NCBI GenBank assembly: GCA_951802425.1 | Contig: OX637795.1 | Coordinates: 248,001 to 312,000 of the forward strand | Direction of reading: 5' to 3' | From: Clavaria fumosa | Lineage: Eukaryota; Basidiomycota; Agaricomycetes; Agaricales; Clavariaceae | Length of the DNA: 64,000 bases | Shown: positions 8,063-53,413 of the stretch, one piece after another | How positions within the stretch are numbered: the first letter of the stretch is position 1 | Layout: each line of letters opens with the position of its first letter | The notes under the pieces: model-generated | What the model was told of the DNA's origin: nothing | Seen by the model: the letters and a program-made list of their open reading frames with translations, nothing else | Database searches by the model: none | Translations under genes and position numbers: made by a program

Positions 8063-8325
8063 TGTAAGGCTATAGGCTTTTTCTGTTCTTATATTACATA
8101 AGCTCTATACCATAATAGTCTACTAGCATAGCCGCTTGGGCTATGCTTACATCAGTGGCCCCTAGAGGGCTGCTCGCCTATATATACCATGTTGTGACTG
8201 TACATAGAGGGCAGATCCCTCTATATAGAACTACCATACTCAATATATCATTGAGTCCAGTTCTTTTGAGGGATAGTAAGTCTTACAACTTTTTTGAACC
8301 TTTAACACTATGAGTGTGGTTAATG
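8063..8325 (+). mobile_element. Truncated third copy of the chromovirus LTR
   Basis: 8063-8287 is a 225-bp LTR (TGTAAGGCTATAGG ... TTACA) of the family at 27057, 35716, 44745 and 53184. It is followed by about 38 bp of the same internal leader (ACTTTTTTGAACC) and then unrelated sequence, so it is a truncated insertion and not a clean solo LTR. It interrupts or abuts a short frame (7919 onward) of unknown origin. Confidence 0.85.
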
Positions 8326-25564: not shown

Positions 25565-26298
25565 TCCTTGCAATAGAGTATTGTAATTACAATAAATAGC
25601 TATTGCAAGAGTGACTGTAAGTGTATTGCAAGACATGACAATACAGCCTCTGTGACAACTGTGATGTGCTTGTCCCAAAGTGGACAATAGCCATGCAATG
25701 TATTACAATACATGTCCCTTTCAGGCCTGCCCTGCACACTCATTCTGTTCCCAGGCCTGCCCTGCCTTTCCCAGGCCTGCCCTGACAATAGCCATGCAAT
25801 ATATTACAATACATGTCCTTTCCCAGGCCTGCCCTGCCTATTGCAGGGTCCCCTGACAAACAATGGCAAACAAAATATGCTAAAAATAAAAACAAAAACT
25901 CGAAATTGAGCAGCCCTGTGCCTGGTCCCTCAGGTACAGCTTACCAATCAGGCATAGCTGCTTTTGGTAAGCTGCTATGACTGTGGGATTTTTTTTGCAT
26001 GGCTTGCAAAATATGACTTTTTATACACCAAAAAATCAGCAAAAATCAGGAGATTCCGAATCTGGACACCCCACATTTCTAAGGTAGACCACATTCACAA
26101 ACAGTTACATCATGTGATAAAACTGATTTATGCATGACAAACGATGTATTTCACTCAGCATATGCTCTCACAGCAATTTAATTAAAATATCGCTTCAGAG
26201 GTCAATAGTCAATTGTCTTGTACACAATCCCATGTCATTATAATTCCAGATTTCAACAAATTGAAGGACAAGTAGCATTTGCAAGGCTTGGGTGTGCA
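25565..26298. repeat. Left terminal inverted repeat of the DDE transposon
   Basis: From the outside: TTGCAA/ATTACAATA motifs, then CCAGGCCTGCCCTGCC blocks, then TTGCAGGGTCCCCTGAC, then an AT-rich part that matches 37464-37958 in reverse complement with few differences. The strong similarity of the two arms suggests the DDE element moved not long before it was interrupted. Confidence 0.85.
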
Positions 26299-27056: not shown

Positions 27057-27653
27057 TGTAAGGCTATAGGCCTTTTCTATTCTTTTATTACATAATATAC
27101 ATACCATAATAGTCTACTAGCATAGCCGCTTAGGCTATGCTTACATCAGCAGCCCCTAGAGGGCCGCTCGCCTATATATATCGGGTCGTGACTGTACAGA
27201 GAGGGTAGATCCCTCTACATAGAACTACCATACTCAATATACAGTTGAGTCCAGTTCTTTTGAGGGATAGAAAGCATTACAACTTTTTTGAACCTTCAAC
27301 ACAACGAGTGTGGCGAGAAATGGGTTACACCCATATAGCCGTGCAGAAGAAGCACAACAAGAAGGGAGGAGAAACTCCTCCCTTGGTAGGACCTCTGCGC
27401 AACACAGGCGTCATGCAGCCAGAGGGAATAGGACCCTCTGTCGAGCCCAGTGGTGAACCCCCACTAAGGGCTGACATGGCATCACCGGCCCCTGACGACA
27501 GCGTTAGGTCCAAAACGCCGTCGACACGAGGAGGGCGCCACAACGCGCCAAGTCACTGGCGAGGCGCCATCGTTCGAGAAGGCCGGACCTTCAAAAGGAA
27601 AGGGCAGAGAGCCCTTAGAAACCCGCAAGAGGTGGCCATGAGAGCAGTCAAGC

Positions 27654-29081
27654 TTGCAGGCTCCCTCCAATAGTGGAGATGAGCCCACAGCGATAGCGCG
27701 AGCTAACGCTGTAGCCGAGAGACTCTTGGACATTCAGGTGGAACTTTCCCGCCAGGACGAAGAGTTTGAGGCTCTTGTAAGGGCGATGAAAAATCGCCAA
27801 GCCACTATTCGGCAATGGCTAAGCGAGGAGGCTACCCACATTAGGTGGGTGTTGGACTCACTAGATGAGCAGGGAACCGCACTAGCGGCTCCCTTACGGC
27901 GGCAACGCCGTGATTCGTTGGAACCCGAAGTGGGGCCTGCCCCGCTGAGTCAGGCGCCAGCCGACCACGAGGAAGGGTGGCGAAGGGAGAACCGCGTGGA
28001 CGGTTCTTGAACCCCTGGCGAACCAGGAATGGAGGGCGGCAGCCCTCGAGAAACAGCGGGGCCGGAGCCGCAGCTTATGTCGCGCTACCCACAGCTGGGT
28101 CAGCGAGAGCCAACAGGCCGGATGGGCCCATTCGGATGGATGGAACCGCCCCAGAAGGAGTGGGAGATTACTCGGGAGGTGTCCCCGAGTTCTACAAACT
28201 ACCAGAGCGATGTATTACATCGCTACCTCGTGATGATACAAGATAAAACCTCGCTATTGCCTGAGGCAATAGCTGAGATTAGGGGGATTAAGATTGACCC
28301 CCCTGAGCTTTATGACGGACGAGACAACCTCGTCGTCTGGGAAAGGTGGCTCGATGGCCTCCTTAATTACTTCTACTTCTATAGAGTAGTCGGCCCGCAG
28401 TTGGAGCACCAACGCATTATGCTAGTGGGGTCACGTTTAAGCGGAATAGCCGCTACTTGGTATACCCAAGAAGTAACAGGTCTATCCCATGCTCCTCGAA
28501 GGTCCACCTTCGAGGAATTGATAACCGCTATGTTTAAGTGGTTCCTGACAGAGGTAATGGCCCAGAAGGCAGTGGATGCCTTCTATCAGGTGAAGTTTAC
28601 AAAGGCGAAGGGCGCCTTGGGATTCTGGAACGAATTGGCCCAGGCAGCGGAGAGAATGCTCACCCCGCCTGACGCCGGTACGATGAAAAGGCAGTTCCTT
28701 AACGGACTGCCTAACGAGATGGTGGAGGCCATCTTCAAAACTCGTGCGATTAGCGTCGAGTTATCCTCGGTTGAGGATATTATCAACACTAGTCGCCAAG
28801 TGGAAGCGACCCTCCACTACCTCCAGCAGCGGAGGGCAGTGCCTTCGGTAGGGAACCAGGCAGGTCCCAAAGGAAACCCGCCTACAGGCAGAGTGCCTGT
28901 GGGGCAGAGGTTTGTGAGACTGCGGCCGCAGACTGTAGGCCAGGGGAACCTGTTCCCCTGCGGATCGACCGCACGCAAGACGAGTGTGTCCAAACCGGAG
29001 GAAGCAAACCCCGGCCAGAACCACCTAAGGTGGTGCCCAAGATTGGGGTACAAGGCGGAGAGGAGCGGAAAGCTCCTCTAA
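27654..29081 (+). pseudogene. gag: gag of chromovirus copy A (broken)
   Basis: Retrotransposon gag core with WERWLDGLLNYFYFYRVVG, GIAATWYTQEVTGL and FEELITAMFKWFLTEVMAQK. Compared with copy B it has lost the likely start (ACG where B has ATG at 45231), gained TGA at about 27637 and 28008-28010, and lost about 13 nt near 28928. That loss shifts the frame before the zinc knuckle. A short upstream frame from inside the LTR to 27673 is open in a different phase; its role is unknown. Gag would form the particle; this copy could not make it unaided. Confidence 0.85.
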
Positions 29082-29929
29082 CATGCTATATGTGCGGGAA
29101 AGCAGGGCACTACGCGAATGTGTGCCCTCAGTCACAGCGAAAGCCAGAGGCTTTTAGGGGAAATGTAAGGAACTACGCCTTACAAGAGGAGCCGGGCGAG
29201 TCAGAGCCCGAGGAACTGCTGGAAACACCTGCAGTTGAAAGCAAGGAGGCGGAGGAAGTTGCGGAAGACGACTACGCTGGTCACGGGGACCAGTACGATT
29301 CGCACGAGCTCGAGGAGGAGGCGGAAAGCGACCAGGTCGCTGGAATCCGGGAATTGGAAGAGGACGAGGTCCTCTACATGACAGAAGTACGTGTCGGCCA
29401 TGTCGACAACAGGCCGTTTCAGGCGCATGTCCAGAAGGAGCAGATGGGATCGCGCCCGGTAGTGACAAAGGAGGCTAGGCAATGCCTCGCGGCCTACATC
29501 ACCGTGAACGGTGTAAAAGTGTATACGCTTTTCGATTCTGGAAGTACCCCGGACCTGATGAGCCCGGACTTTGCCTGGGTGACGAAGGTACCGACCTTCC
29601 AACTGGATAATCCAGTTCCTATCCAACTCGGCTGTATCGGCAGCCGATCAACAATCACACACGGATGCCGTGTAGCGGTAGATTTGGGAGGAATACTGGA
29701 GGAGGACCAGCATTTTGATATAGCGAACATCAACCACTATGATATCATAGTCGGAACGGCGTTCATGTATGACCGCCATGTGATACTGGATGTGCACCGA
29801 CGGGCAATCCGGATTGGCGAAGGGAAGGGGAAAACCCTTCAGGCGATGTCGCCCAGTGAGGAGACGGAAGCATTATGCGTCCGTATATCGGCTAAGAATG
29901 CGCCGAGGAAGGAAGCTCAAAAGAGCTGA
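29030..29929 (+). CDS. Zinc knuckle and aspartic protease, copy A
   Basis: In ancestral order this is the end of the gag-protease frame. It has a CCHC knuckle CYMCGKAGHYANVC, an acidic linker, and a retropepsin core: LFDSGSTPDLMS (catalytic Asp), then INHYDIIVGTAFMY, which fits the second conserved strand. It ends at TGA 29927-29929 followed directly by CTA. The same frame stays open on to pol with no further stop, and copy B has the identical stop, pointing to readthrough. The knuckle binds RNA; the protease would cut the polyprotein. Confidence 0.85.
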   Translation: MVPKIGVQGGEERKAPLTCYMCGKAGHYANVCPQSQRKPEAFRGNVRNYALQEEPGESEPEELLETPAVESKEAEEVAEDDYAGHGDQYDSHELEEEAESDQVAGIRELEEDEVLYMTEVRVGHVDNRPFQAHVQKEQMGSRPVVTKEARQCLAAYITVNGVKVYTLFDSGSTPDLMSPDFAWVTKVPTFQLDNPVPIQLGCIGSRSTITHGCRVAVDLGGILEEDQHFDIANINHYDIIVGTAFMYDRHVILDVHRRAIRIGEGKGKTLQAMSPSEETEALCVRISAKNAPRKEAQKS

Positions 29930-32900
29930 CTACACTCGGGCCCCCAGGATGCGGGTGAGCCCTGGAAGGGGGGAGAGGCTAACACCTCTGTAAAGATAGA
30001 CGACGCCTACCTCGAAGGCAGGCGTGAGTACTGGTTTAACCAGTACGCTGAGCTCTTTGGGGGAGTTCCCCCCAGACCGCCGCCGTTTCAGGTGGTGAAC
30101 CACTGCATACGCTTAATAGACGAAAAGCAAGTCTATAATTATTACCTGCCTCGGTGTGCTGAGGCATTTAAGGAACAATTCCTTGAGAAAGTGAACCGTT
30201 ATATTACTAACAGTTGGTGGGAAGCAGGAGCGGCATTGCAAGCAGCTCCTATGTTATGCATACCAAAAAGCAGCCGGAACCCACTGCTACGGACGGTCGT
30301 AGACTGTCGGAAATGGAATGCGAACACAGTACGGGATATTACCCCGTTGCCTGATCAGGACCAGATCAGGCAGGATGTGGCTAGAGCCGCGTATAGGTCA
30401 AAGATTGACCTATCAGACACGTACAAGCAAGTATGCATAGAACTTGAGGATGTGTGGAAGACGGCCTTTGCAACCGTCTTGGGCACCATGTTCTCACAGG
30501 TGATGCAGATAGGGGATTATAATGCCCCTGCTACCTTCCAATGCCTGATGACGCACATATTTCGTCATCAGTTGGGAAAGTACATGCATGTGTACTTAGA
30601 CGATGTATTCGTCTTCTCCAAGACCTTGGAGGACCATGAGCATCACTTAAAGACGGTCTTTGAGACCCTCAAAGGCGCGAGCCTTTTCTTGAGTAAGAAG
30701 AAGTGCTCGTTATACGCGAAGAGCGTAGATTGCTTAGGGCATATTATAGATGCCCGAGGAATCCACATCACAGTGGATAAAATGGATAAAATCTGTAACT
30801 GGAAAACGCCAACAAGCGTTAACAAGGTGCAGAGGTTCCTCGGATTAGTACAGTACATCGGACAGTTCATGCCCAATCTGTCCGCTTATACTGGCCCTTT
30901 GGCTAGTCTGTGTAGTGAAACACGAATGTTTCACTGGAGACCACTCCATGACAAGTGTATGGAGGTGATTAAGGCATTGGCATGTAAAATGCCAATATTA
31001 CACCCAGTAGACGTGGCGGTACAGGAGCCAATATGGCTCGTGTGCGACGCCTCGGTGTCAGGCGTAGGGGCCATGTATGGCCAGGGAAATACATGGGAAA
31101 CCTGCTGTCCAGCAGGGTTTATGTCTAAAAGGTTCAGCCTGGCCCAGTTTAGTTACAAAACCTGGGACCGGGAGGCCTTAGCGATTGTCGAATCGCTACA
31201 GAAATGGGAGGATAAACTCCTCGGTAGACGAATCAACATGGTCACAGACCACGAAGCGCTGGGGTTCTTTAAGAACCAAACACGCTTGTCTGGCCGGCAG
31301 GCCAGGTGGATGGAATATATGGAGAGGTTTGACTACTCCATCACTTACATTAAAGGCGAGAGCAACAAAGTTGTGGATGGCCTTTCGCGTTACCATATGA
31401 GTGATGCAACAGATGAGATTCATCCAGATCACGAGTATGTGAAGGCGGACGTTCGCCTTGACCCTGAAGGGGACGAGTTGCCCTGCGGACGCCTGGAGGA
31501 GGTGCGCGCACTGCGAGTACGCGCACCTGCCACGGACCAGGAGACCGAGCAGGAGCAATCGCCGCCTGTGCCCCAAGCGGACGGGGATGTGAGGGACGAG
31601 ACGCTCGTGCCCTTAAGGCCCTGCGTGGAAGGGGGGGATAGCAGGATGCTGCAAAGCATCCATGACAGCTATGAACAGGATCGCCTGTTCAAAATAATTT
31701 TGGAGAAACCAGGAAACTACACTGGTTTTAAGATCAGGGATGACCTGATCTTCGCTGAGAATAAAAAGGGAGATGAGGTGCTCTGCGTGCCTCGTACCCT
31801 TCATGAAGGGAAAAGCATCCATGGGAGAATAATCCAGGAAGCCCATGCGGTCCTAGGACACATGGGGTCGCGGATAACAATGGATTACGTCTGCCGTTAC
31901 TACTGGTGGCCATCGGTGTCTAAAGACATCAATAAGTTTTGCTCGTTGTGCGGCGTGTGCCAGACGAGCAAGACTTCCCCTCAGAAGCCGCAAGGGCTTC
32001 TACACACCCTTCCGATCCCCAGGCGGCCCTGGGAATCAATAGGAATGGACTTCGTAGGTCCATTTCCTATGTCGAAAGAGGCGGACTACCTCTGGGTGGT
32101 GATCTGCCGCCTCACTTCACTGGTACACCTAGTACCAGTTACTGTTTCGGTAATGGCAGCAGAGCTAGCCTGGCTCTTCCTAACCCATGTAGTGAGACTG
32201 CATGGGTTGCCAGGATCGATTGTGTCCGATTGTGATCCAAGATTTACGTCTGCCTTTTGGCAGGAAACACAACGACTACTCGGTGTCAAGCTGCGGATGT
32301 CCACAGCTTTCCATCCGCAGACGGATGGAGCGATGGAACGGTCGATCCGATCCGTGTCTCAGATCCTCCAATCTGTGGTCCAACCGGACCAGACAGACTG
32401 GGCGGAGCGAATCCCAATGGTTGAATTCGCCATTAATGCGTCAATAAGCGCGTCGACGGGGTTTGCCCCATTTGAGCTCACCTATGGGTACATGCCCCAG
32501 ATGATGGCAGAGTTGCCAGACGACCTCCGGGCGGTGCCCAGAGGGGTACAGATGTTCGCGGAGAAAGCCGCACTCAACCTTGCAATGGCGCACGATGCGA
32601 TTATAGAAAGTCGCGTCCACCAGACCTTTTACGCTAACCAGCGTAGACGGGCAGAGCACCCGTTTAGAGAGGGAGAATTAGTCTACCTCTCAACAGAGAA
32701 CTTGAATCTCCCTAAAAAACGAGCTAGAAAGCTCATGCCGAAGTTTATTGGGCCATACCCAATACGGTCGTGTAGACCGGAATCGTCTACGTACGAGCTG
32801 GAGCTCCCCGACTCGCTAAAGTCGAGGAGAATCCATCCGACATTCCATGTCAGCCGGTTGCGGCAACATGAACCAAACGACGACACGTTGTTTCTGCATC

Positions 32901-33163
32901 ATGAAGTGAAAGTCTTTTATGACTTTGGTGTGGATCCAAAGGAGGAATGGCTAGTAGACACCATTATTGGCCATAGGTGGGAAGGCCGCCACCTGGAATG
33001 CGAGGTTCGATGGAACCTCAGGGATACGACCTGGGAGCCGTACATGGGGGTCGAAGAGCTGGCTGCTCTAGACCATTACCTTGAACTACAAGGTGTAGAC
33101 TCATGGAGGGTGCTACCTAGGCACCCTCGAGCAGAGTGTGGACGGAGCGCCCGCGCGGAGTAG
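29930..33163 (+). CDS. pol: pol: RT, RNase H, integrase, chromodomain (copy A, intact)
   Basis: Continuous from the TGA at 29927 to 33163, about 1077 codons; the usual ORF call would begin at 30092. RT: TVVDCRKWNANTVRDITPLP and active site HVYLDDVFVFS (about 30590). RNase H: VCDASVSGVGAMYG (about 31045), TDHEALGFF. Integrase: zinc-binding part around GHMGS and CSLCGVCQ (about 31850-31965), core GMDFVGPFP, IVSDCDPRF and DGAMERS giving D, D and E. C-terminal chromodomain: EEWLVDTIIGHRW, ECEVRWNLRDTTWEPYM (about 32940-33045), the mark of chromoviruses that target chromatin. IVSDCDP probably was SDRDP (CGT to TGT). Confidence 0.95.
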   Translation, partial: LHSGPQDAGEPWKGGEANTSVKIDDAYLEGRREYWFNQYAELFGGVPPRPPPFQVVNHCIRLIDEKQVYNYYLPRCAEAFKEQFLEKVNRYITNSWWEAGAALQAAPMLCIPKSSRNPLLRTVVDCRKWNANTVRDITPLPDQDQIRQDVARAAYRSKIDLSDTYKQVCIELEDVWKTAFATVLGTMFSQVMQIGDYNAPATFQCLMTHIFRHQLGKYMHVYLDDVFVFSKTLEDHEHHLKTVFETLKGASLFLSKKKCSLYAKSVDCLGHIIDARGIHITVDKMDKICNWKTPTSVNKVQRFLGLVQYIGQFMPNLSAYTGPLASLCSETRMFHWRPLHDKCMEVIKALACKMPILHPVDVAVQEPIWLVCDASVSGVGAMYGQGNTWETCCPAGFMSKRFSLAQFSYKTWDREALAIVESLQKWEDKLLGRRINMVTDHEALGFFKNQTRLSGRQARWMEYMERFDYSITYIKGESNKVVDGLSRYHMSDATDEIHPDHEYVKADVRLDPEGDELPCGRLEEVRALRVRAPATDQETEQEQSPPVPQADGDVRDETLVPLRPCVEGGDSRMLQSIHDSYEQDRLFKIILEKPGNYTGFKIRDDLIFAENKKGDEVLCVPRTLHEGKSIHGRIIQEAHAVLGHMGSRITMDYVCRYYWWPSVSKDINKFCSLCGVCQTSKTSPQKPQGLLHTLPIPRRPWESIGMDFVGPFPMSKEADYLWVVICRLTSLVHLVPVTVSVMAAELAWLFLTHVVRLHGLPGSIVSDCDPRFTSAFWQETQRLLGVKLRMSTAFHPQTDGAMERSIRSVSQILQSVVQPDQTDWAERIPMVEFAINASISASTGFAPFELTYGYMPQMMAELPDDLRAVPRGVQMFAEKAALNLAMAHDAIIESRVHQTFYANQRRRAEHPFREGELVYLSTENLNLPKKRARKLMPKFIGPYPIRSCRPESSTYELELPDSLKSRRIHPTFHVSRLRQHEPNDDTLFLHHEVKVFYDFGVDPKEEWLVDTIIGHRWEGRHLECEVRWNLRDTTWEPYMGVEELAALDHYLELQGVDSWRVLPRHPRAECGRSARAE

Positions 33164-33296
33164 TAAACGCGATCGAGCCAGACTGCTGGGTCGTTAGCCA
33201 CAGTGATTAAGTCACGTGGTGGCTCCACCGTAAGGTACAAAACCTTAAGAGGGCCCGCCCTCTTTTTCTCTTTTTCCTCATCAGCCATTTGTTACA

Positions 33297-35423
33297 ATGG
33301 ATGATCTGATGGGGGAAACCCCATCTCCTCGCACTACCCGCGCCGCCGCTGCTACTGCCGCCGTCCCTGGCCTCGCGCCAGGGAACTCACTGCCGACGAG
33401 CATCGTCGGAACGGCTGGGTTGTCCCAGCCGTCGTTGTCGCAAGGGGAGGAAACTCTCCCCTGTGTCCAGGATCACATGATCCATGCGATCACCCACGGA
33501 TCCCGGTGCACTCAGTGTATCGGATTCCATCGTCACATCTTCGAGTCGCTGCTGCACTCGGACAAAGCGTTTCAACAAACGCTTAAGGAAGCACAGGAAA
33601 GCGCTAGGCGTGAGCTCGAGCCGGAGCTCGGAATGATACAGTGCAAGTTGGATGACTTGCATGAAGAGTATGAGAAGGGCAATGCCCTTTGCGCCGGGCA
33701 CTGGCAAAAGCTTGAAAAAGCTTACGATAGCCTGGATAAGGTCGAGGCCAACCTTAGAAAGGCGAAGGAGAAGGTTCTCTCCTTGACAGAAAAGTTGGCA
33801 AGCGCCAACGAGGAGCTTGCCGCAGTGCGAATGGCAGTGAAAGGGAAGGGACCTGACAGGGATCCCTTGGAGCGGGACCCTAAAAGGGCCCGCACTGCTG
33901 TCTCATACGCAGACATAGCGCCACCTATGGGGGACGTGGACGTCCCCATGAACATTGAGGAGGGGTATCCCCCTCTTCCACCTGCTGGTGTTAGCCAGCA
34001 GAACCCCGATGCCTCACTGAGGCATAAACGAACGTTTGCGGAGACGGTGCTTGCACCTCCGACAAGGGGTTATCCCTTTAATGCCCCCTGCCCGGACAGG
34101 GCTCCGGATGGCTATCCCTGGCCATCAGGGATGTCTGTCAAGCCCGGTGCGTGGGCTGTCGAGTTGAAGACAGTTGAGGAGGTGATAGCCCTCAACCAGC
34201 AGGCGCATCATGGAGCGCCTGACGGCAGTTATGATATGACTGCTGTAATGAAGATGCGATGGGCCATTAAGGAGGCCCAGAAGAACGCGGCAGTGGGAAA
34301 GCTGCCTACACCAGTTGAGGACTGGCTGTTGAGGAACTGGAGAGTTCCTGCCGGCATCGAAAAATCGGCAGACCGGGTGGCACGCCATCTGCAGGAGCAG
34401 ATGTTGCGAGAGAGCGGAGGGATGGGCGACCCATCCCTGAGGGCAGGACCCTTGGAAGTCGCAGGAGGGGGAGCACCCTCCTATCCATCGTACCAGACAT
34501 TGCCGCTGACAGCGGCAAGAGTGGTTGCGCCTCCCATTAGGGAGTTTGTAGAGACCGGGGAGCCGTTGCTCCCCCAAGAGCTGTGGCTCTCCTTTGTAGG
34601 GGAGAAGGGAGAAATTCCCCCTATGAACCCGAAAGGCGACAGAGGCGCAGTGTCAGACCTGCGCTGCTGGGCCGCCGACATAAGGATGGGCAGAGCGGCC
34701 GTCCTTGGTATTGATAAGGACAGGGACTCACCCCTGTCCTTTGCACGCAAGGTGGCCATCTGGCATACCATAATGGCGTGCGCACCGTCCCGGGCCTGAA
34801 TGCGGCGCCCGTTCCTAGCTATGGCTGTAGCCCTCTTTGTGTCAAAGGGGGCATATGCGCAGGCCATTAAAGGGAGAGTCCTCCCTGCATGACGTTCCAG
34901 GCACTGGAACACAAAGATAACGCCAACCGTCGCACAGAAGATTGAGGCGTTTGTAGACGCCGGAGTCTCCATTGGGGAAACGGAGCTCTGGGACGAATTT
35001 GTACTTGCGTGGGCACGCGAGTACGTGCGAAAGGGGAATGCCCCCTTGGACGATGATATCCAGCTAGCGCTGGGTGAACGGGAGAAGCCTCCCATACCAC
35101 CCCAGACATATGCACTGCTAGAGTGCATAGGGCGCGGGGCGCATCCGTGCCATCTTCGGTTAAGCGAGAAGGCGGGAGACAAACGGAGGGGCGATGCGCC
35201 CCTGGAAGACGGTGGAAGCACGTCCACCGTTAGAAACCCCCTAGGGCTACCTATTGGGGGTTTAACAATATCCCAGACAGAGGGTGCGGGGCCCTCTCAA
35301 AAACAAAAGAAAGCGGCTAAGTCATCAGCCGCTAAGGCCACGAAGAGGCCTGTTGTGTCGTCGCCCGACTGGAGCGACAACAAGGGCGAGCCGCCGTGCG
35401 ACTACGAGCAGGGCTCGGACTAA
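33297..35423 (+). pseudogene. ORF3 of copy A, extra 3' gene with two stops
   Basis: A 709-codon sense frame after pol, starting ATG 33297, broken by TGA at 34797-34799 and 34890-34892, where copy B has CGA. Visible parts: a Pro/Ala N-terminus; SRCTQCIGFHRH, a possible zinc site; a charged heptad-rich region (about residues 85-185) likely to form a coiled coil; KRARTAVSYADIAPP; LPTPVEDWLLRNWRVP; and a Lys/Ala-rich end (QKQKKAAKSSAAKA). No signal peptide or clear membrane segment is seen, so it is not an obvious env. I do not recognise the family. It might assist particle assembly or RNA binding, but that is a guess. Expression could need splicing or a subgenomic transcript. Confidence 0.8.
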
Positions 35424-35715
35424 GCGTCCGAGCTCTTTAAAAACATATGCCTACCCCGCAGGATGAGACAGCGGCACTTGGGGCACCCCCCACCGGGGTG
35501 TGCCGCTCGTGACACGCTGTCCAACTGGGGGCAGGTCACGCAGACCACCGGGGAGGACCCGTCAGCACCAGGCGAAGGCCCCAGGAGGGGATCGCGCCCG
35601 GTGACATGGCGGTAACCCTGCCCAAGGGGATGCGCCCCTTGTAACATTATTCTACTTCTGCTCGTCGTCCCGCACTGCCCGCGCATTGGCTCTGGTTGGG
35701 GCCTCTCCGGAGGGG

Positions 35716-35940
35716 TGTAAGGCTATAGGCCTTTTCTATTCTTTTATTACATAATATACATACCATAATAGTCTACTAGCATAGCCGCTTAGGCTATGCT
35801 TACATCAGCGGCCCCTAGAGGGCTGCTCGCCTATATATATCGTGTCGCGACTGTACAGAGAGGGTAGATCCCTCTACATAGAACTACCATACTCAATATA
35901 CAGTTGAGTCCGGTTCTTTTGAGGGATAGAAAGCATTACA
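35716..35940 (+). repeat. 3' LTR of copy A
   Basis: 225 bp, TGTAAGG...TTACA. It differs from the 5' LTR (27057-27281) at about 5 sites, about 2 percent, so the insertion is not very recent. ATTTC follows at 35941. Confidence 0.95.
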
Positions 35941-35945
35941 ATTTC

Positions 35946-37378
35946 TCCCAGGAACTGCAACTGCATCTGCAGGGCATAGGGAAATATGTGAGAGTGATGG
36001 ATATTGTGGAGTATCTGGATAAACCAGAGGTGAAGGCTAAGCTCGGACTTACCAGAACCATCCACCTTGCTACCGCACAGCGCTGGATGAGGAAGATCAA
36101 CTATCGGTGGACTGAAACTCCCACTGGCCAGTATGTTGATGGCCATGAACGTGAGGACATAGTGCGATACCGTCAAATGGTGTTTCTCCCTGCTTTAGCC
36201 GAGGCCCTGTGCCGGTCCCGCATTTACAGTCCAGATGGAGAGCCTGTAGAGGGCCCATGCCAGTCTCCCCGCAGGATTGTAATCTGGTTTCATGACAAGT
36301 CTACTTTCTATGCAAATGATCACAGAACCAAACGCTGGGTACACAAAACAGAGACTGCAGTTCCCCATGCAAAAGGCGAGGGTGTTTCGCTGATGGTAGC
36401 TGACTTCATGAGTGCCAATTACGGATGGCTTCAGTCTCCTGATGGGCAAGAATCAGCACGCATCCTTTTCAAAGCCGGGAAACAGCGTGACGGTTATTTC
36501 ACACATGACAATATCCTCAAGATGACCACATGTTTATCTATGATAATGCAACAATACACGCTAAACGAGGCGATGGTGCACTCTCAGCTCGCCATATGCC
36601 CAAATCCAAGCCGAAAAATTCGCACGAGTGGGATGGAATGGACTGGGGAACTGACCGCAATCCGAAGAATTGGGGGGTTGAGGTTAACATGGTTGGAGCG
36701 GACAGGAAGCCAATCTATGGTCCCAATGGTGCGATCTTGAGGCACAAGGTTCCTATGGTCGATGGAACCTTTGCAGATGGGTCACCACAGCCATTTTACT
36801 ACCCTAGTGGACATGAATTCGCCGGCATCTTCAAAGGGATGGCTGCCATACTTCAGGAACGTGAGTATGAGGGGGTTCAGAAGCTTCGTGCGGAGTGTCC
36901 GAAGTTCCAGTGCAAGCCGGGCAGCATGCACTGCTGTTGTCGGCGCATCCTTTTCAATGAGCCTGATTTCGTCAATGTCAAGTCACTGTTGGAGACTCAC
37001 TGCAAAGATCAAGGATTCTCAGTCACTTTCCTGCCAAAGTTCCATTGCGAGCTCAGCCCCATCGAGCAGTGTTGGGGATGCTCGAAGCGGGTATATCGAA
37101 TGTTCCCTCCCTCGTCTAAGGAATCTGACCTTGAACGAAATGTTCTTAACGCTTTGGGATCAGTCTCACATGAAGCAATGCGAAAGTATGTCAGCTACAT
37201 CACCTTTCTTCAGTACTGACTCTTACCTAGGTTCTCTACCCAGTCTCTGAGGTTCTCTGACGCATACAGGAAGGGTCTGAATGGCCAACAGGCAGCCTGG
37301 GCAACAAAGAGGTATCATGGGCATAGAGTACTTCCAATGCAGATTATTGAGGAGCTAGGGAGGGCCAGTCTGCCCTAG
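35946..37378 (+). pseudogene. DDE transposase, 3' part after the chromovirus
   Basis: Continues from 27056. Motifs: IVIWFHDKSTFYANDHRTKR (first Asp of the DDE triad), VADFMSANYGWLQSPDG, ILFKAGKQRDGYFTHDN, then in another frame FIYDNATIHAKRGDGALSAR (second Asp), CCCRRILFNEPDFVNVKSLL and FHCELSPIEQCWG (Glu). The frame changes near 36525 between THDNILKMTT and FIYDNAT, where family members as I remember them have about 15 more residues, so a small deletion broke the gene. A 45-bp intron (37186-37230) restores phase to a last exon with DAYRKGLNGQQAAWATKRY and stop 37378. This is a DDE_3-like (IS630/Tc1-type) transposase, catalytic triad present but no longer in one frame. Confidence 0.85.
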
Positions 37379-38760: not shown

Positions 38761-38849
38761 ACTCCTCAGGACTCCATGCAGATTGGAGGCAAAGTCTCAA
38801 GGAGTATTTGCAGTCAGTTATTACAGTCTGAATTGACTTCATGACTCTG

Positions 38850-44744: not shown

Positions 44745-45230
44745 TGTAAGGCTATAGGCCTTTTCTGTTCTTGTATTACATAATCTACCTACCATAATAG
44801 TCTACCAGCATAGCCGCTTAGGCTATGCTTACATCAGCGGCCCCTAGAGGGCTGCTCGCCTATATATATAGTGTCGCGACTGTACAGAGAGGGTAGATCC
44901 CTCTACATAGAACTACTACACTCAATATACAGTTGAGTCCGGTTCTTTTGAGGGATAGAAAGCATTACAACTTTTTTGAACCTTCAACACAACAAGTGTG
45001 GTTAGAAATGGGTTACACCTGTATAGCTGCACAGAAAAAGCACAACAAGAAGGGAGGAGAAACTCCTCCCTTGGTAGGACCTCGGCATGACACAGGCGTC
45101 GTGCAGCCAGAGGGAATAGGACCCTCTGTCGAGCCCAGCGGTGAACCCCCACTAAGGGCTGACATGGCGTCACCCGCCCCTGACGACAGTGTTAGGTCCG
45201 AAATGCCGTCGACATGAGGAGGGAGCCACA

Positions 45231-46772
45231 ATGCGCCAAGTCACTGGCGAGGCGCCATTGTTCAAGAAGGCTGGACCTTCAAAAGGAATGGGCAGAGAGC
45301 CCTTAGAAACCCATGAGAGGTGGCCGCGAGAGCGGTCAAGCTTGCGGGCTCCCTCCAATAGTGGAGACGAGCCCACAGCGATAGCACGAGCTAATGCTGT
45401 AGCTGAGAGACTCTTGGACATTCAGGCGGAACTCTCCTGCCAGGACGAAGAGTTTGAGGCTCTTGTAAGGGCGATGAAAAATCGCCAAGCCACTATTTGG
45501 CAACGGCTAAGCGAGGAGGCTACCCACATGAGGCGGGTGTTGGACTCGCTAGATGAGCAGGGAACTGCGCTAGCGGCTCCCTTACAGCAGCAACGCCGTG
45601 ATTCGTTGGAACCCGAAGTAGGGCTTGCCCCAACGAGTCAGGCGCCCTCAGGGGTAGCCCCGGAGGCCAGATGGTCAGCGCCAGCCGACCGTGAGGAAGG
45701 GTGGCGAAGGGAGAACCACGCGGACGGTTCTCAAACCCCTGGCGAACCAGGAATAGAGGGCGGCGGCCCTCGAGAAACAGTGGGGCCAGAGCCGTGGCTT
45801 ATGTCACGCTACCCACAGCTGGGTCAGCGAGAGCCAATGGGCCGGATGGAACCGCCCCAGAAGGAGTGGGAGATTACTCGGGAGGTATCCCCGAGTTCTA
45901 CAAATTACCAGAGCAATGTATTACATCACTACCTCGTGATGATACAAGATAAAACCTCGCTATTGCCTGAGGCAATAGCTGAGATTAAGGGGATTAAGAT
46001 TGACCCCCCTGAGCTTTATGACAGACGAGACGACCTCGTCGTCTGGGAAAGGTGGCTCGATGGCCTCCTTAATTACTTCTACTTCTATAGAGTAGTCGGC
46101 CCGCAGTTGGAGCACCAACGTGTTATGCTAGCGGGGTCACGCTTAAGTGGAATAGCCGCTACTTGGTATACCCAAGAAGTAACGGGCCTATCCCGTGCTC
46201 CTCAAAGGTCCACCTTCGAGGAATTGATAACTGCTATGTTTAAGCGGTTCCTGACCGAGGTAATGGCCCAGAAGGCAGTGGATGCCTTCTACCAGGTGAA
46301 GTTTACAAAGGCGAAGGGCACCTTAGGATTCTGGAACGAACTGGTTCAGGTGGCGGAGAGAATGCTCACCCCGCCTGACGCTGGTACAATGAAAAGGCAG
46401 TTCCTTAATGGACTGCCTAACGAGATGGTGGAGGCCATCTTCAAAACTCGTGCGATTAGCATTGAGTTATCCTCGGTTGAGGATATTATCGATGCTAGTC
46501 GCCAGGTGGAAGCGACCCTCCACTACCTACAGCAGTGGAGGGCAGTGCCTTTGGCAGGGAACCAGCCAGGTCCCAAAGGAAACCCACCCACAGGCAGAGT
46601 GCCTGTGGGGCAGAGGTTTGTGAGACTGCGGCCGTATCGGCCGCACACAGACCGTAGGCCAGGGGAACCTGTTCCCCTGCAGATTGACCAAGCACGGGAC
46701 GAGCGCGCCCAAGCCGGAGGGAGCAAACCCCGGCTAGAACCGCCTAAGGCGGTGCCCAAGATTGGGGTATGA
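45231..46772 (+). CDS. gag: gag of chromovirus copy B
   Basis: From ATG 45231 the frame is open to TGA 46770-46772, about 513 residues. The first part is charged and helical (ERLLDIQAELSCQDEEFEAL), then Pro/Gly-rich, then the gag core WERWLDGLLNYFYFYRVVG, GIAATWYTQEVTGL and FEELITAMFKRFLTEVMAQK. The TGA is not shared with copy A (A has CAA there, one frame over) and separates gag from the zinc knuckle in the same frame, so the ancestral protein ran on through knuckle and protease. A different-phase frame upstream (about 44933-45217) reaches back into the LTR in both copies. Confidence 0.85.
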   Translation: MRQVTGEAPLFKKAGPSKGMGREPLETHERWPRERSSLRAPSNSGDEPTAIARANAVAERLLDIQAELSCQDEEFEALVRAMKNRQATIWQRLSEEATHMRRVLDSLDEQGTALAAPLQQQRRDSLEPEVGLAPTSQAPSGVAPEARWSAPADREEGWRRENHADGSQTPGEPGIEGGGPRETVGPEPWLMSRYPQLGQREPMGRMEPPQKEWEITREVSPSSTNYQSNVLHHYLVMIQDKTSLLPEAIAEIKGIKIDPPELYDRRDDLVVWERWLDGLLNYFYFYRVVGPQLEHQRVMLAGSRLSGIAATWYTQEVTGLSRAPQRSTFEELITAMFKRFLTEVMAQKAVDAFYQVKFTKAKGTLGFWNELVQVAERMLTPPDAGTMKRQFLNGLPNEMVEAIFKTRAISIELSSVEDIIDASRQVEATLHYLQQWRAVPLAGNQPGPKGNPPTGRVPVGQRFVRLRPYRPHTDRRPGEPVPLQIDQARDERAQAGGSKPRLEPPKAVPKIGV

Positions 46773-47405
46773 GGTGGAGAGGAGCAGAAAGCTCCTCTAA
46801 CATGCTATGTGTGCGGGAAAGCAGGGCACTACGCGAATGTGTGCCCTCAGTCACAGCGAAAGCCAGAGGCTTTTAGGGGAAATGTAAGGAACTACGCCTT
46901 ACAAGAGGATCCGGGTGAGATGGAGCCTGAGGAACCACAGGAAACACCTGCGGTTGAAAGTGAGGAGCTGGAGGGTGAAGCCCTACCGGAGGAAGTCACG
47001 GAAGACGACTACGCTGGTCGCAGAGACCAGTATGATTCAGACAAGCTCTTTGTCCTTGAAGAGCTCGAGGAGGAGGCGGAAAGCGACCAGGTCGCTGGAA
47101 TCTGGGAAGTGGAAGAGGATGAGATCCTCTACGCGACGGAAGTACACTTCGGCCATGTCGACGATGGGCCGTTCCGGGCGCATGTCCAGAAAGAGCGAAT
47201 GGGATCGCACCTGGTAGTGACAAAGGAGGCAAGGCAATGCCTCGCAGCCTACATCACCGTGAATGGTGTAAAAGCGTACATGCTTTTCGATTCGGGAAGT
47301 ACTCCGGACCTGATGAGCCCGGACTTTGCCCAGGTGACGAAGGAAGTGTTACACATCTGTATATCAGATAAGAATGCGCCAAGGAGGGAAGCTCGAAAGA
47401 GCTGA
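46773..47405 (+). pseudogene. Zinc knuckle and deleted protease, copy B
   Basis: CYVCGKAGHYANVC knuckle, an acidic linker, and the start of the protease with LFDSGSTPDLMS. Then about 276 bp present in copy A (about 29589-29865) are missing in frame, joining FAQVTK to EVLHICISDKNAP. The flap and the second half of the retropepsin core are gone, so the protease cannot work. The terminal TGA (47403-47405) followed by CTA is the same as in copy A. Confidence 0.85.
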
Positions 47406-50400
47406 CTACACTCGGGCCCCCAGGATGAGGGTGAGCCCTGGAAGGGGGGAGAGGCTAACACCTCTGTAAAGATAGACAACGCCTACCTCGAAGGCAGGCG
47501 TGAGTACTGGTTTAACCAGTACGCCGAGCTCTTTGGGGGAGTTCCCCCCAGACCGCTGCTGTTTCGGGCAGTGAACCACCGCATACCCTTAATAGACGAA
47601 AAGCAAGTCTATAATTATTACCTGCCTCGGTGTGCTGAGGCATTCAAGGAACAATTCCTTGAGAAGGTGAACCATTATATTACTAACAGTTGGTGGGAAG
47701 CAGGAGCGGCATCGCAAGCAGCTCCTATGCTATGCATACCAAAAAGCAGCTGGAACCCACTGCTACGGACAGTTGTAGACTGTCAGAAACGGAATGCGAA
47801 CATGGTACGGGATATTACCCCGTTGCCTGATCAGGATCAGATCAGACAGGACATGGCTAGAGCCGCGTATAGGTCAAAGATTGACCTATCAGACGCGTAC
47901 GAGCAAGTATGCGTAGAACCTGAGGATGTGTGGAAGACGGCCTTTGCGACCGTCTTGGGCACCATGTTCTCACAGGTGATGCAGATAGGGGATTGTAATG
48001 CCCCTGCTACCTTCCAATGCCTGATGACGCACATATTTCGTCATCAGTTGGGAAAGTACGTGCATGTGTACTTAGACGATGTATTCGTCTTCTCCAAGAC
48101 CTTGGAGGACCATGAGCATCACTTAAAGATGGTCTTTGAGACCCTCAAAGGCGCGAGCCTTTTCTTGAGTAAGAAGAAGTGCTCGTTATATGCGAAGAGC
48201 GTAGATTGCTTAAGGCATATTATAGATGCCCGAGGAATCCACGTCACAGTGGATAAAATGGATAAAATCTGTAACTGGAAAACGCCAACAAGCGTTAACA
48301 AGGTGCAGAGGTTCCTCGGATTAGTACAGTACATCGGACAGTTCATGCCCAATCTGTCCGCTTATACTGGCCCTTTGGCTAGTCTGTGTAGTGAAACACG
48401 AACGTTTCACTGGAGACCACTCCATGACAAGTGTATGGAGGTGATTAAGGCATTGGCATGTAAAATGCCAATATTACACCCAGTAGACGCAGCAGTACAG
48501 GAGCCAATATGGCTCGTGTGCGACGCCTCGGTGTCAGGCGTAGGGGCCATGTATGGCCAGGGAAAGACATGGGAAACCTGCCGTCCAGCAGGGTTTATGT
48601 CTAAAAGGTTCAGCCTGGCCCAGTTTAGTTATAAAACTTGGGACTGGGAGGCCTTAGCGATTGTTGAATCGCTACAGAAATGGGAGGATAAACTCCTTGG
48701 TAGACGAATCAACGTGGTCACAGACCACAAAGCACTGGGGTTCTTTAAGAACCAAACATGCTTGTCTGGCCAGCAGGCCAGGTGGATGGAGTATATGGAG
48801 AGGTTTGATTACTCCATCACTTACATTAAAGGTGAGCGCAACAAGGTTGCGGATGGCCTTTCGCAGTACCATATGAATGACGCGACAGATGAGATTCATC
48901 TGGATCACGAGTACGTGAAGGCAGACATTCGCCTTGACCCCAAAGGGGACAAGTTGCCCCGCGGATGCCTGGAGGAGGTGCACGCACTACGAGTACGCGC
49001 ACCTGCCGCAGACCAGGAGACCGAGCAGGAGCAACCGCTGCCTGGGCCCCAAGCGGACGGGGATGTGAGGGACGAGACGCTTGTGCCCTTAAGGCCCCAC
49101 ATGGAAGGGGGGGATAGCAGGATGCTGCAAAGCATCTGTGACAGCTATGAACAGGATCGCCTGTTTAAAATAATTCTGGAACAACCAGGAAACTACACCG
49201 GTTTTAAGATCAGGGAGGACCTGATCTTCTCTGAGAATAAAAAGGGAGACGAGGTGCTCTGCATACCTCGTACCCTTCATGAAGGAAAAAGTATCCCTGG
49301 AATAATAATCCAGGAAGCCCATGTGGTCCTAGGACACATGGGGTCGCAGATAACGACCGATTATGTCCGTCGTTACTACTGGTGGCCATCGGTGTCTAAG
49401 GACATCGATAAGTTTTGTACGTCATGCGGTGTGTGCCAGATGAGCAAGACTTCCCCGCAGAAGCTGCAAGGGCTTCTACACACCCTCCCAATCCCCAGGC
49501 GGCCCTGGGAATCAATAGGAATGGACTTTGTAGGTCCATTCCCTATGTCAAGAGAGGTGGACTACCTCTGGGTGGTGATTTGCCGCCTCACTTCACTGGT
49601 ACATCTAATACCAGTTACAGTGTCAGTAGCGGCAGCAGAGCTAGCCTGGCTCTTTCTAACCCATGTAGTGAGACTACATGGGCTGCCAGGATCGATCGTG
49701 TCTGACCGCAATCCTAGATTCACCTCTGCCTTCTGGCAGGAAACACACTGACTACTCGGTGTCAAGCTGCGGATGTCCACAGCTTTCCATCTGCAGATGG
49801 ATGGAGCGACGGAACGGTCGATCCGATCCGTGTCTCAGATCCTCCGATCTGTGGTCCAACCGGACCAGACGGATTGGGCGGAACGAATCCCAATGGTTGA
49901 ATTCGCCATTAATGCGTCAATCAGCGTGTCAATGGGGTTTGCCCCATTTGAGCTCACCTATGGGTACATGCCCCAGATGATGGCAGAGTTGCCAGACGAC
50001 CTCTGGGCACCGCCCAGAGGTGTAAGGATGTTCGCAGAGAAAGCTGCACTCAACCTTGCAATGGCACATGATGCGATTATAGAAAGTCGCGTCCACCAGA
50101 TGTTTTACGCTAACCAGCGTAGATGGGCAGAGCACCCGTTTAGAGAGGGAGAATTAGTCTACCTCTCAATGGAGAACTTGAATCTCCCTAAAAAACGAGC
50201 TAGAAAGCTCATGCCGAAGTTTATTGGGCCTTACCCAATACAGTCGTGTAGACCGGAATCGTCGACATATGAGCTGGAGCTCCCCGATTCACTAAAGTCG
50301 AGGAGGATCCATCCGACGTTCCATGTCAGCCGGTTGCGGCGACATGAGCCGAACAATGATGCGTTGTTTCTGCATCATGAAGTAAAAGTCTTTTATGACT

Positions 50401-50635
50401 TTGGTGTGGACCCGAAGGAGGAATGGCTAGTGGACACCATTATTGGCCATAGGTGGGCAGGATGCCACCTAGAATGCGAGGTCTGATGGAACCTCGGGGA
50501 TACGACTTGGGAGCCGTATATGGGAGTCAAAGAGCTAGCAGCTCTAGACCACTACCTTGAACTACAAGGTGTAGACTTGTGGAGGGCACTACCTAGGCGC
50601 CCTCAAGCAGAGCATGGACGGAGCGCCCGCGCAGT
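47406..50635 (+). pseudogene. pol: pol of chromovirus copy B (two stops)
   Basis: Open in frame from the TGA at 47403 to TGA 49749-49751, then on to TGA 50484-50486; copy A has CGA at both. RT active site HVYLDDVFVFS, RNase H VCDASVSGVGAMYG and integrase GMDFVGPFP are intact; the first stop falls within the integrase core between the second Asp and the Glu. The expected FHPQTDG reads FHLQMDG. The chromodomain begins (EEWLVDTIIGHRW) and its second half lies after the second stop. Confidence 0.92.
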
Positions 50636-50772
50636 GTAGTAAACGCGATCGAGCCAGAGCGTGGGGTCGTTAGCCACAATAATTAAGTCACGTGGTGGCT
50701 CCACCGTAAGGTACAAAACCTTAAGAGGGCCCGCCCTCTTTTTCTCTTTTTCCTCATCAACCATTTTTTACA

Positions 50773-52884
50773 ATGAATGATCCGATGGGGGAAACCCCAT
50801 CTCCTTGCGCTACCCGCGCTGCCATCCCTGGCCTTGTGCCAGGGAACTCGCTGCCGACGAGCATCGTCAGAACGGCTGGGTTGTCCCAGCCGTCGTTGTC
50901 GCAAGGGGAGGAAACCCTCCCCTGGGTCCAGGATTGCATGATCCATGCGATTACCCACGGATCCCGGTGCACTCAGTGTATCGGATTCCATCGCCACATC
51001 TTCGAGTCGCTGCTGCACTTGGACGAAGCGTTTCAACAAATGCTTAAGGGAGCACAGGAAAGCGCTAAGCGTGAGCTCGAGCTGGAGCTCGGGATGATGC
51101 AGCGCAAGTTGGATGACTTGCATGAAGAGTATGAGAAGGGCAATGCCCTTTGCGCCGGGCACTGGCAAAAGCTTGAAAAAGCTTATGATAGCCTGGATAA
51201 GGTCGAGAACGACCTTAGAAAAGTGCGGGAGAAGATTCTCTCCTTGACTGAAAAGTTGGCAAGTGCCAACGAGGAGCTCGCCACGGTGCGAACTGCGGCG
51301 AAAGGGAAGGGACCAGAAAGGGACCCCTTGGAGCAGGACCCTAAAAGGGCCCGCACTGCCGTCTCATACACGGACATAGCGCCGCCTATGGGGGATGTGG
51401 ATGTCCCCATGAACGTTGAGGAGGAGTATCCCCCTCTTCCACCTGCTGGTATTAGCCAGCAGAACCCCGATGCCTCACTGAGGCATAAACAAACGTTTGC
51501 GGAGACAGTGCTTGCGCCTCCGACAAGGGGTTATCCCTTTAATGCCCCCTGCCCGGACAGGGCTCCAGATGGCTATCCCTGGCCATCGGGGATGTCTGCC
51601 AAGCCCGGTGCGTGGGCTGTCGAGTTGAAGACAGTTGAGGAGGTGATAGCCCTCAACCAGCAGGCGCATCATGGAGCGCCTGACAGCAGTTATGATATGA
51701 CTGCTGTAATGAAGATGTGATGGGCCATTAAGGAGGCCCAGAAAAACGCGGCAGTGGGAAAGCTGCCTACGCCAGTTGAGGACTGGCTGTTGAGGAACTG
51801 GAGAGTTCCTGCTGGTGTCGAGAAATCAGCAGACCGGGTGGCACGCCATCTGCAGGGGCAGCTGTTGCGAGAGAGCGGAGGGATGGGCGACCCATCCCTG
51901 AGGGCAGGACCCTTGGAAGTCGCAGGAGGGGGAGCACCCTCCTATCTGTTGTACCAGACATTGCCACTGACAGCGGCAAGAGTGGTTGCGCCTCCCATTA
52001 GGGAGTTTGTAGAGACCGGGGAGCCGTTGCTCCCCCAAGAGCTGTGGCTCTCCTTTGTAGGGGAAAAGGGGGAAATTCTCCCTATGAATCTGAAGGGCGA
52101 CAGAGGCGCAGTGTCAGACCTGCGCTGCTGGGCTGCCAACATAAGGATGGGCAGGTTGGCCTTCCTTGGGATTGATAAAGACAGGGATTCACCCCTATCT
52201 TTTGCACGCAAGGTGGCCATCTGGCGCACCATAATGGCGTGCGCACTGTCTCGGGCCCGAATGTGGCGCCCGTTCCTAGCCATGGCTGTGGCCCTCTTTG
52301 TGTCAAAGGGGGCATATGCGCAGGCCATCAAAGGGAGAGTCCTCCCTGTACGACGTTCCAGGCACTGGAACACAAAGAAAATGCCAACCGTCATGCAGAC
52401 GATTGAGGCATTTGTAGACGCCGGAGTCTCCGTTGGGGAAACGGAGCTCTGGGACGAATTTGTACTTGCGTGGGCACGCGAGTACGTGCGAAAGGGGAAT
52501 GCCCCCTTGGATGATGATATCCAGCTAGCACTGGGTGAACGGGAGAAGCCTCCCGTACCTCCCTGGACATATGCACTACTAGAGTGTATAGGGCATGGAG
52601 CGTGTCCGTGCCGTCTTCAGTTGAGCGAGAAGACGGGAGACAAACGGAGGGGCGATGCGCCCCTGGACGATGGTGGGAGTACATCCACCATTAAAAACCC
52701 CCTAGGGTTACCTATCGGGGGTTTAACAATATCTCAGACAGAGGGTGCGGGGCCCTCTCAAAAACAAAAGAAAGCGGCTAAGTCATCAGCCGCTAAGGCC
52801 GCGAAGAGGCCTGTTGTGTCGTCACCCAACTGGAGCGATGACGAGGGTGAGCCACTGTGTGACTATGAGCAGGGCTTGGACTAA
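50773..52884 (+). pseudogene. ORF3 of copy B (one stop)
   Basis: A 704-codon frame with ATG 50773 and one TGA at 51718-51720 where copy A has CGA. It aligns with ORF3 of A throughout, including SRCTQCIGFHRH, the coiled-coil region, KRARTAVSYTDIAPP, PTPVEDWLLRNWRVPAG and the Lys-rich end. In B the two positions that are TGA in A are CGA, so each copy confirms the other's ancestral frame. Function unknown. Confidence 0.82.
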
Positions 52885-53183
52885 GCGTCCGAGCTCTTTA
52901 AAAACTATGCCTACCCCGCAGGACGAGACAGCGGCACTTGGGGCACCCCCCACCGGGGCGTGCCGCTCGTGACACACTGTCCAACTGGGGGCAGGTTGCG
53001 CAGACCACCGGGTAGGACCCGTCAGCACCAGGCGAAGGCCCCAGGAGGGGATCGCGCCCGGTGACATGGCGGTAACCCTGCCCAAGGGGATGCGCCCCTT
53101 GTAAAATTACCCTACAATCCTGCTCGTCGTCCCGCGCTGCCCATGTGTTGTCTCTGGTTGGGGGCCTCTCCGGTGGGGGAGGG

Positions 53184-53408
53184 TGTAAGGCTATAGGCCT
53201 TTTCTATTCTTGTATTACATAATCTACCTACCATAATAGTCGACCAGCATAGCCGCTTAGGCTATGCTTACATCAGCGGCCCCTAGAGGGCCGCTCACCT
53301 ATATATATAGTGTTGCGACTGTACAGAGAGGGTAGATCCCTCTACATAGAACTACTACACTCAATATACAGTTGAGTCCGGTTCTTTTGAGGGATAGAAA
53401 GTGTTACA
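53184..53408 (+). repeat. 3' LTR of copy B
   Basis: 225 bp, ending GTGTTACA where the other LTRs end GCATTACA. It differs from the 5' LTR (44745-44969) at about 7 sites, about 3 percent. CTGCC follows. Confidence 0.95.
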
Positions 53409-53413
53409 CTGCC

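Follow-up and report, generated by a model that had tools for sequence, protein, structure and literature searches.

The window analysed here, a stretch of 64,000 nucleotides from the basidiomycete Clavaria fumosa (assembly GCA_951802425.1, contig OX637795.1, positions 248,001 to 312,000 of the forward strand), carries two copies of a long terminal repeat (LTR) retrotransposon of the Ty3/gypsy type, which we call A and B. Copy A contains about one perfect small hairpin per 60 bases, far more than its composition or its proteins predict. The two copies and the parts of A are as follows, in window coordinates.

27057..35940, + strand: LTR retrotransposon copy A, entire (8884 bp; 141 non-overlapping perfect stems of at least 6 bp)
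27057..27281, + strand: 5' LTR of A (225 bp; 3 hairpins of at least 6 bp)
28029..29081, + strand: gag open frame of A (weak Ty3_capsid match, E 0.022, under the cut-off)
29030..29929, + strand: frame with zinc knuckle and aspartic protease (PF00098, PF08284)
30092..33163, + strand: pol, with profile matches to reverse transcriptase, RNase H, integrase and SH3_Tf2-1
33297..34799, + strand: ORF3, 500 aa, no Pfam family above cut-off
35716..35940, + strand: 3' LTR of A (225 bp; 5 of 225 bases unlike the 5' LTR)
44745..53408, + strand: copy B, same family as A (LTR matches at 44745-44969 and 53184-53408)

Copy A has the features of a Ty3/gypsy element: LTRs that end in TG...CA, a 5-bp target duplication (ATTTC) at both sides, and the order protease, reverse transcriptase, RNase H, integrase. 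The match to the integrase core (PF00665) scores 22.7 bits, under its cut-off, and the integrase is followed by an SH3-like domain, PF24626 (SH3_Tf2-1, 53 bits), which we take to be a domain of the GPY/F type. A chromodomain (PF00385) was not found at E<=1 in the pol frame of A but is present in some relatives, e.g. P0019, so the label 'chromovirus', given to A in a sequence-only reading of this DNA, is borne out by the SH3_Tf2-1 domain and not by a chromodomain. The homologous gag frame of B is longer and begins further upstream, and we therefore read that of A as interrupted. ORF3 is 54% identical, across 43% of its length, to a metagenomic protein, and the homology continues in frame beyond the ORF3 stop (34799) to about 35294. 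Between B and a related subfamily, D, its divergence outside stems and CpG is 0.241 at third, 0.087 at first and 0.072 at second codon positions, a pattern which suggests that ORF3 is a real protein. Most of the sequence in the tracts 27466-28028 and 34800-35439 codes for protein in B or in a relative. A piece of the reverse transcriptase of A has at least 114 matches in the genome, with some copies contributing two. Protein relatives exist, the closest of which (P0002 to P0007) are 55-64% identical, and they include proteins named for Phanerochaete sordida and Trametes sanguinea. A search of viral contigs for DNA of relatives confirmed none.

We counted maximal perfect stems with loops of 3-14 nt, using 30 dinucleotide shuffles as background. 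Copy A has 155 stems of at least 6 bp where the shuffles give 19.9 +- 4.3, 77 of at least 7 bp against 5.1, and 35 of at least 8 bp against 1.0, an excess of 8x, 17x and 35x respectively. Copy B, counted over 44745-53482, gives 147 against 21.0, 70 against 6.7 and 32 against 1.6 for the same thresholds. As codon-level controls we used 60 shuffles that keep protein and codons, and 60 that keep dinucleotides as well. At 6 bp or more the count lies above the maximum of both sets in all nine open frames of A and B; eight of the nine exceed every shuffle of both sets at 7 bp or more, and six do so at 8 bp or more. With protein, codons and dinucleotides all kept, stems of at least 7 bp number 25 in pol of A (3.0 expected) and 22 in its ORF3 (3.3 expected). 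The dense hairpins proposed in the sequence-only reading are thus upheld against shuffles that preserve protein, codons and dinucleotides. The same reading saw them alike in gag, pol, ORF3 and LTR, which holds for the coding frames. In the presumed non-coding sequence, 685 bp of LTR, leader and 3' tract, we count 8 stems of at least 6 bp where 2.5 are expected, about 3-fold, but neither the LTR alone (3 against 0.9, with 14 of 200 shuffles as high) nor the 3' tract alone (2 against 1.1) stands out.

Six hairpins had been singled out in that reading, and all six lie exactly where it placed them.

30348..30372, + strand: hairpin with 9-bp stem and loop of 7 (exact match in sequence)
30393..30413, + strand: hairpin with 9-bp stem and loop of 3 (exact match in sequence)
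30914..30935, + strand: hairpin with 9-bp stem and loop of 4 (exact match in sequence)
34418..34438, + strand: hairpin in ORF3 with 9-bp stem and loop of 3
34500..34518, + strand: hairpin in ORF3 with 8-bp stem and loop of 3
34557..34574, + strand: hairpin in ORF3 with 7-bp stem and loop of 4

Between 30090 and 31000, where 22 hairpins had been counted by eye, we find 18 non-overlapping stems of at least 6 bp; the figure of 22 is plausible if 5-bp stems are included. The impression that hairpins follow one another almost without gaps was too strong, since stems of at least 6 bp together with their loops span 2797 of the 8884 nt of A (31%), with a median gap of 28 nt. Nor are the hairpins of A regularly spaced, the coefficient of variation being 0.68, as for random placement (0.68).

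The excess depends strongly on loop length. In A and B together, stems of at least 7 bp are 26-28x over background at loops of 3-5 nt and 3.4x at a loop of 0, whereas loops longer than 15 nt bring the ratio to about 1x or below and no excess is seen at long range; this profile is that of single-strand hairpins and not of palindromes in double-stranded DNA. Predicted folding energies agree for both strands. As had been suggested as a check, the RNA was folded in windows, and its energy lies far below that of shuffles: the mean z per 150-nt window is -2.9 in both A and B, with -2.75 and -2.95 for the respective antisense strands, compared with -0.2 to -0.8 in three ordinary gypsy loci. Expressed as the minimum folding energy difference (MFED; dinucleotide shuffles, end-to-end 350-nt windows), the values are 23.7% for A (25 windows, range 8.9 to 36.9), 23.9% for B (24 windows, range 6.1 to 40.0), 16% for one D copy and 21% for one copy of a second hairpin-rich family described below, as against 2.8-8.3% for the three ordinary loci.

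The hairpins of A also have a polarity. Their 5' arms favour purines (A 0.27, G 0.37), and the outermost pair has A on the 5' side and T on the 3' side in 77 of 141 hairpins, a preference which nearest-neighbour helix energies would not yield. The reverse complement of a hairpin keeps the same arms, and the polarity is therefore identical on both strands. The tendency recurs in B, in L045 and in two D copies, where A is the first base at a frequency of 0.42 to 0.52; the polarity was not seen in the second family, in MS2 or in Qbeta. On the sense strand, loops are enriched in A (0.32 against 0.25 in the element; T 0.21 against 0.20). Among tetraloops, 4 of 29 are GNRA and none of 29 its reverse complement, a hint too small to count.

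The hairpins are a family trait. Among copies of a 4.1-kb piece, the 30 that score best, which include A and B, each have between 51 and 83 stems of at least 6 bp, and six diverged relatives (L040 to L045) have 62 to 105 stems in 6-8.5 kb, compared with 17 to 31 in shuffles. For comparison we took 16 other gypsy loci, a non-random sample hand-picked from 150 of 1582 candidates; these represent 15 places (L047 and L048 overlap), are 27-32% identical to A in pol, and on the pol tree the ordinary ones form about seven families. Fourteen of these loci, at 13 places, show 0.3x-1.8x at 6 bp and, with counts of at most 7, up to 3.4x at 7 bp. Among the ordinary loci, L054, L056, L058 and L059 have a GC content like that of A, yet reach only 0.9x-1.6x. 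The two exceptions among the 15 places are L053 (4.4x at 6 bp) and L061 (3.3x), which together with L067 and L068 (4.7x and 5.2x, picked for their family membership) make up a second hairpin-rich family, about 30% identical to A in pol, with a milder excess of 3.5-5.2x over the four copies. Within the families sampled, the excess is thus restricted to that of A and this one. A tree built from 23 pol proteins requires two changes of the trait, a single change being found in 0% of 200 bootstrap trees, with A on a long branch and the trait state of four outside relatives left unassigned. On this sampled-family tree the second family's hairpins appear as a separate gain. Among D copies, six (L041, L042, L062, L063, L064 and L065) all lack the same stretch of about 1.1 kb in pol (A positions 3970-5092), and the deleted form therefore seems to have multiplied; most of the six sit near contig ends, and L040 does not have the deletion.

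To follow stems through time, we aligned a 1.2-kb piece in 36 of 41 loci, comprising 26 of an A group, seven of the D group and three others. Five loci (L022, L028, L030, L036, L065) fell outside the alignment, having no single match across the piece; L028 and L036, which are near-copies, were dropped, and 25-copy runs were also made without L022, L027 and L030. L072 was aligned but assigned to no group, and L071, which is the same locus as copy B (no difference in 1488 bases), was counted once. Many hairpin centres are common to all groups. Those at 30348..30372 and 30914..30935 bear a stem of at least 6 bp in every copy aligned (26 of the A group, seven of the D group and three others), and the centre at 30393..30413 bears a stem in 0.96 of the 26 A-group copies and in all of the seven and the three. 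Where a group lacks a hairpin, the two commonest variants differ by scattered point changes, mostly transitions (36 copies; the hairpins compared occur in at least 0.4 of A-group or at least 0.5 of D-group copies).

CpG decay is the main source of differences among copies, and CpG columns were therefore removed. The remaining sites vary between groups less often in stems (64 of 1132) than elsewhere (232 of 2238; odds ratio 0.52, p 3e-6), and changes other than transitions are also fewer in stems (8 stem pairs against 54 background sites). As a test of constraint, we took stems from one copy and measured divergence between other copy sets at non-CpG codon positions, with rotated masks as control; the comparison of B with D shares a branch with A, the source of the stems. 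At third positions, divergence in stems was lower than in neighbours in six of six tests, by a factor of 2.4 to 4.1: for pol 0.028 against 0.116, 0.059 against 0.139 and 0.056 against 0.181, with rotated masks as low in 5/388, 26/384 (the weakest) and 3/388 cases, and for ORF3 0.082 against 0.237, 0.092 against 0.275 and 0.039 against 0.116, with rotated masks as low in 0/823, 2/534 and 14/812. In the copy tree, inner branches have a lower ratio of stem to background change than end branches do (0.42 against 0.81 with 25 copies, 0.40 against 0.67 with 36), and a higher end-branch ratio is expected if copies decay freely after insertion.

Elsewhere in the window hairpins are mostly at background. 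Four flanks of A and B, 1 kb each, were counted at 6 bp or more; three are ordinary (1 against 3.0, 4 against 2.5 and 3 against 3.1), while the fourth, 43745-44744, has 9 against 3.0, but 1 against 0.7 at 7 bp or more. Six other stretches of the window give 0.8x-1.5x at 6 bp or more, except 36.8-44.7 kb at 2.6x. A milder excess is found there (2.6x/5.5x/6.1x at 6/7/8 bp) and at 8-17 kb (1.5x/2.9x/5.2x), with small counts at 7-8 bp in both, and part of it lies within minisatellite-like repeats. The tracts 38814-39141 and 42700-43150 hold a 21-bp tandem array and repeats of the TGGAGTCCA type, the latter supplying part of the hairpins outside A and B. Copy A is flanked by inverted repeats of 415 nt, 99% complementary (25802-26216 and 37544-37958), between which, beside A, lies an open frame (36530-37219) that has no Pfam match and resembles a DDE transposase; a DNA transposon bounded by long terminal inverted repeats seems to have been the target of the A insertion. 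Two further inverted repeats are a perfect one at 18300-18576 (arms of 136 nt, spacer of 5 nt) and one at 113-940 (arms of 276 nt, 99% complementary, 276 nt apart). A single further LTR was matched.

8063..8287, + strand: lone LTR match, 89% identical to the LTR of A

How might such an array arise? That it is an artefact of chance, composition or coding we regard as practically out of the question: A is a GC-rich, purine-skewed element, but the excess persists over dinucleotide, synonymous and synonymous-plus-dinucleotide shuffles, and the gypsy loci of similar GC do not share it. A more substantial alternative is that mutation itself depends on structure, so that unpaired bases change more often, during reverse transcription or in RNA, and sequences drift into hairpins without benefit. 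The lower divergence of stems and the stronger effect on inner branches both fit, and pairwise protection could perhaps build a large excess over time. However, 13 of 15 other sampled gypsy places in the same genome have no excess, and non-transition changes are reduced as well as transitions, which makes protection from deamination alone insufficient. We consider this account unlikely, though it deserves to be kept in mind.

Another way to make hairpins by mutation is for reverse transcriptase to fold back and copy one arm into the other. Strict complementarity without a preference for G-U would follow from such copying, and the arm polarity (purine-rich 5' arm, outermost A-T) is also in its favour. 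It predicts many compensated pairs, of which outside CpG there is one among 62 variable pairs; it does not lead one to expect stems that diverge less than their neighbours; and in the 1.2-kb piece subfamilies 9-15% apart show scattered point changes and no blocks rewritten in one arm. Fold-back copying in recent history was accordingly rejected, the two commonest variants of each listed hairpin in the 36 copies having no rewritten arm blocks, and with it, as far as the recent past is concerned, goes the earlier suggestion of a mutation process that templates inverted repeats; as a general account it strikes us as very improbable. Alternatively, the element's own Gag or ORF3 protein may bind the hairpins as many scattered sites, in packaging or condensation, with the fold kept for recognition. 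The zinc knuckle after gag, the A-enriched sense-strand loops and the spread of hairpins across all coding regions speak for this, yet no common loop or arm sequence was seen, and the antisense strand folds as well as the sense strand; we think it distinctly unlikely.

We hold, with moderate confidence, that the hairpin array is maintained by selection on the fold. Selection for a folded genomic RNA had been among the earlier suggestions, and the third-position constraint, the loop geometry and the folding energy support that part of it which says that the fold is kept in cis; the part that remains exposed is the step from rates to selection, which lower mutation of paired bases could match. 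Several observations count against selection on the fold. A reduced mutation rate of paired bases could produce such a pattern of rates as well. The six constraint tests are not independent, because copies are shared among them. The effect is weak at first and second positions, where 10 of 12 comparisons give stems the smaller divergence, though mostly no smaller than rotated masks also reach, and the other two give them a slightly larger one. Positive covariation is missing, given the single compensated pair among 62; compensated CpG pairs are 24 of 110, and two independent CpG decays can yield these. Paired substitutions between copies, proposed as a check, thus gave no support, and covariation was discarded as a proof once the C-G to T-A pairs that looked compensatory proved to lie in CpG. 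G-U mismatches are not favoured over A-C (19 against 34 fixed pairs, with a similar static excess of both), the opposite of what folding of the sense RNA alone would lead one to expect. There is also a residual bias towards conserved sites, because stems are found by being intact, and all the DNA comes from one genome. The near-absence of compensated pairs nonetheless fits a short time span, and we give the wobble-pair test no weight because MS2 and Qbeta do not prefer G-U over A-C either.

If selection on the fold is accepted, the A genome, chiefly its coding part, would have been shaped into dense, short, perfect local hairpins that form in single-stranded nucleic acid, equally in genomic RNA and in its complement. 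Selection acting in cis on active lineages would purge stem mutations while unpaired neighbours drift, and the slower change of stems would then reflect selection rather than a lower mutation rate of paired bases. The hairpins probably form in the cell, where the array would act like an extreme, short-hairpin variant of the genome-scale ordered RNA structure (GORS) known from RNA viruses. The likeliest benefit, which we put forward quite tentatively, is that each strand, being folded on itself, is kept from annealing to the other strand or to silencing RNAs; the fold may instead serve to package or protect the RNA, or to protect the cDNA. A wider and more doubtful proposal is that selection can remodel retrotransposons into strand-symmetric arrays of perfect micro-hairpins throughout their coding sequence, that the RNA and its complement, each folded up, are then unable to form long duplexes, and that this sequence-independent escape from duplex-triggered silencing was gained at least twice in one fungus. 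Gypsy families with and without the fold, in the same host and with the same kind of life cycle, offer a natural comparison. Codon choice and synonymous rates in such elements would follow structure, which affects the dating and phylogeny of transposons.

Whole-genome ordered folding is known from RNA viruses, where its purpose is debated; here it would be found in a retrotransposon. In the portion of PMC7642675 that describes GORS, MFED is about 15% for SARS-CoV-2, 7.5-10.7% for HCV and 23.4% for the highest coronavirus, the last being close to the figure for A, values to be compared with ours bearing in mind that procedures differ (dinucleotide shuffles and end-to-end windows here). The features that this portion gives for GORS are found in A: a folding-energy excess along the coding genome, many consecutive stem-loops, and paired sites that vary less, clearly so at third positions and weakly at first and second. 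Unlike those genomes, whose ordered structure is linked with persistence in the host, A is an integrated LTR retroelement and not a single-stranded RNA virus, and short perfect stems dominate its structure.

We ran MS2, Qbeta and E. coli rRNA through the same script as A. The two phages resemble A in folding strongly on both strands (MFED sense/antisense 30/24% and 31/29%) and in a hairpin excess. They differ from it in that stems of at least 8 bp reach 5.5x in MS2 and 11x in Qbeta, as opposed to 35x in A, which has more perfect hairpins per kilobase than either; their MFED is higher than that of A. E. coli rRNA gives 2.7x at 8 bp or more, from a single hairpin. In MS2 and Qbeta, which use an RNA replicase and minus RNA, folding keeps plus and minus strands apart; A goes via DNA.

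Among LTR retrotransposons, Ty1 genomic RNA reportedly has structured regions. For Ty3, compared here by description, the available part of PMC11381356 places a well-folded core at 19.4% of the RNA, much of it within or near the region coding for reverse transcriptase. A is like both in being an LTR retrotransposon whose RNA has structured regions, and unlike Ty3 in that this part of the paper describes no array of short, perfect hairpins across the whole genome; nor did a search of titles and abstract openings find a report of such arrays in an LTR retrotransposon. The best reading overall is that A may represent a retrotransposon form of genome-scale ordered RNA structure, predicted to fold alike on both strands.

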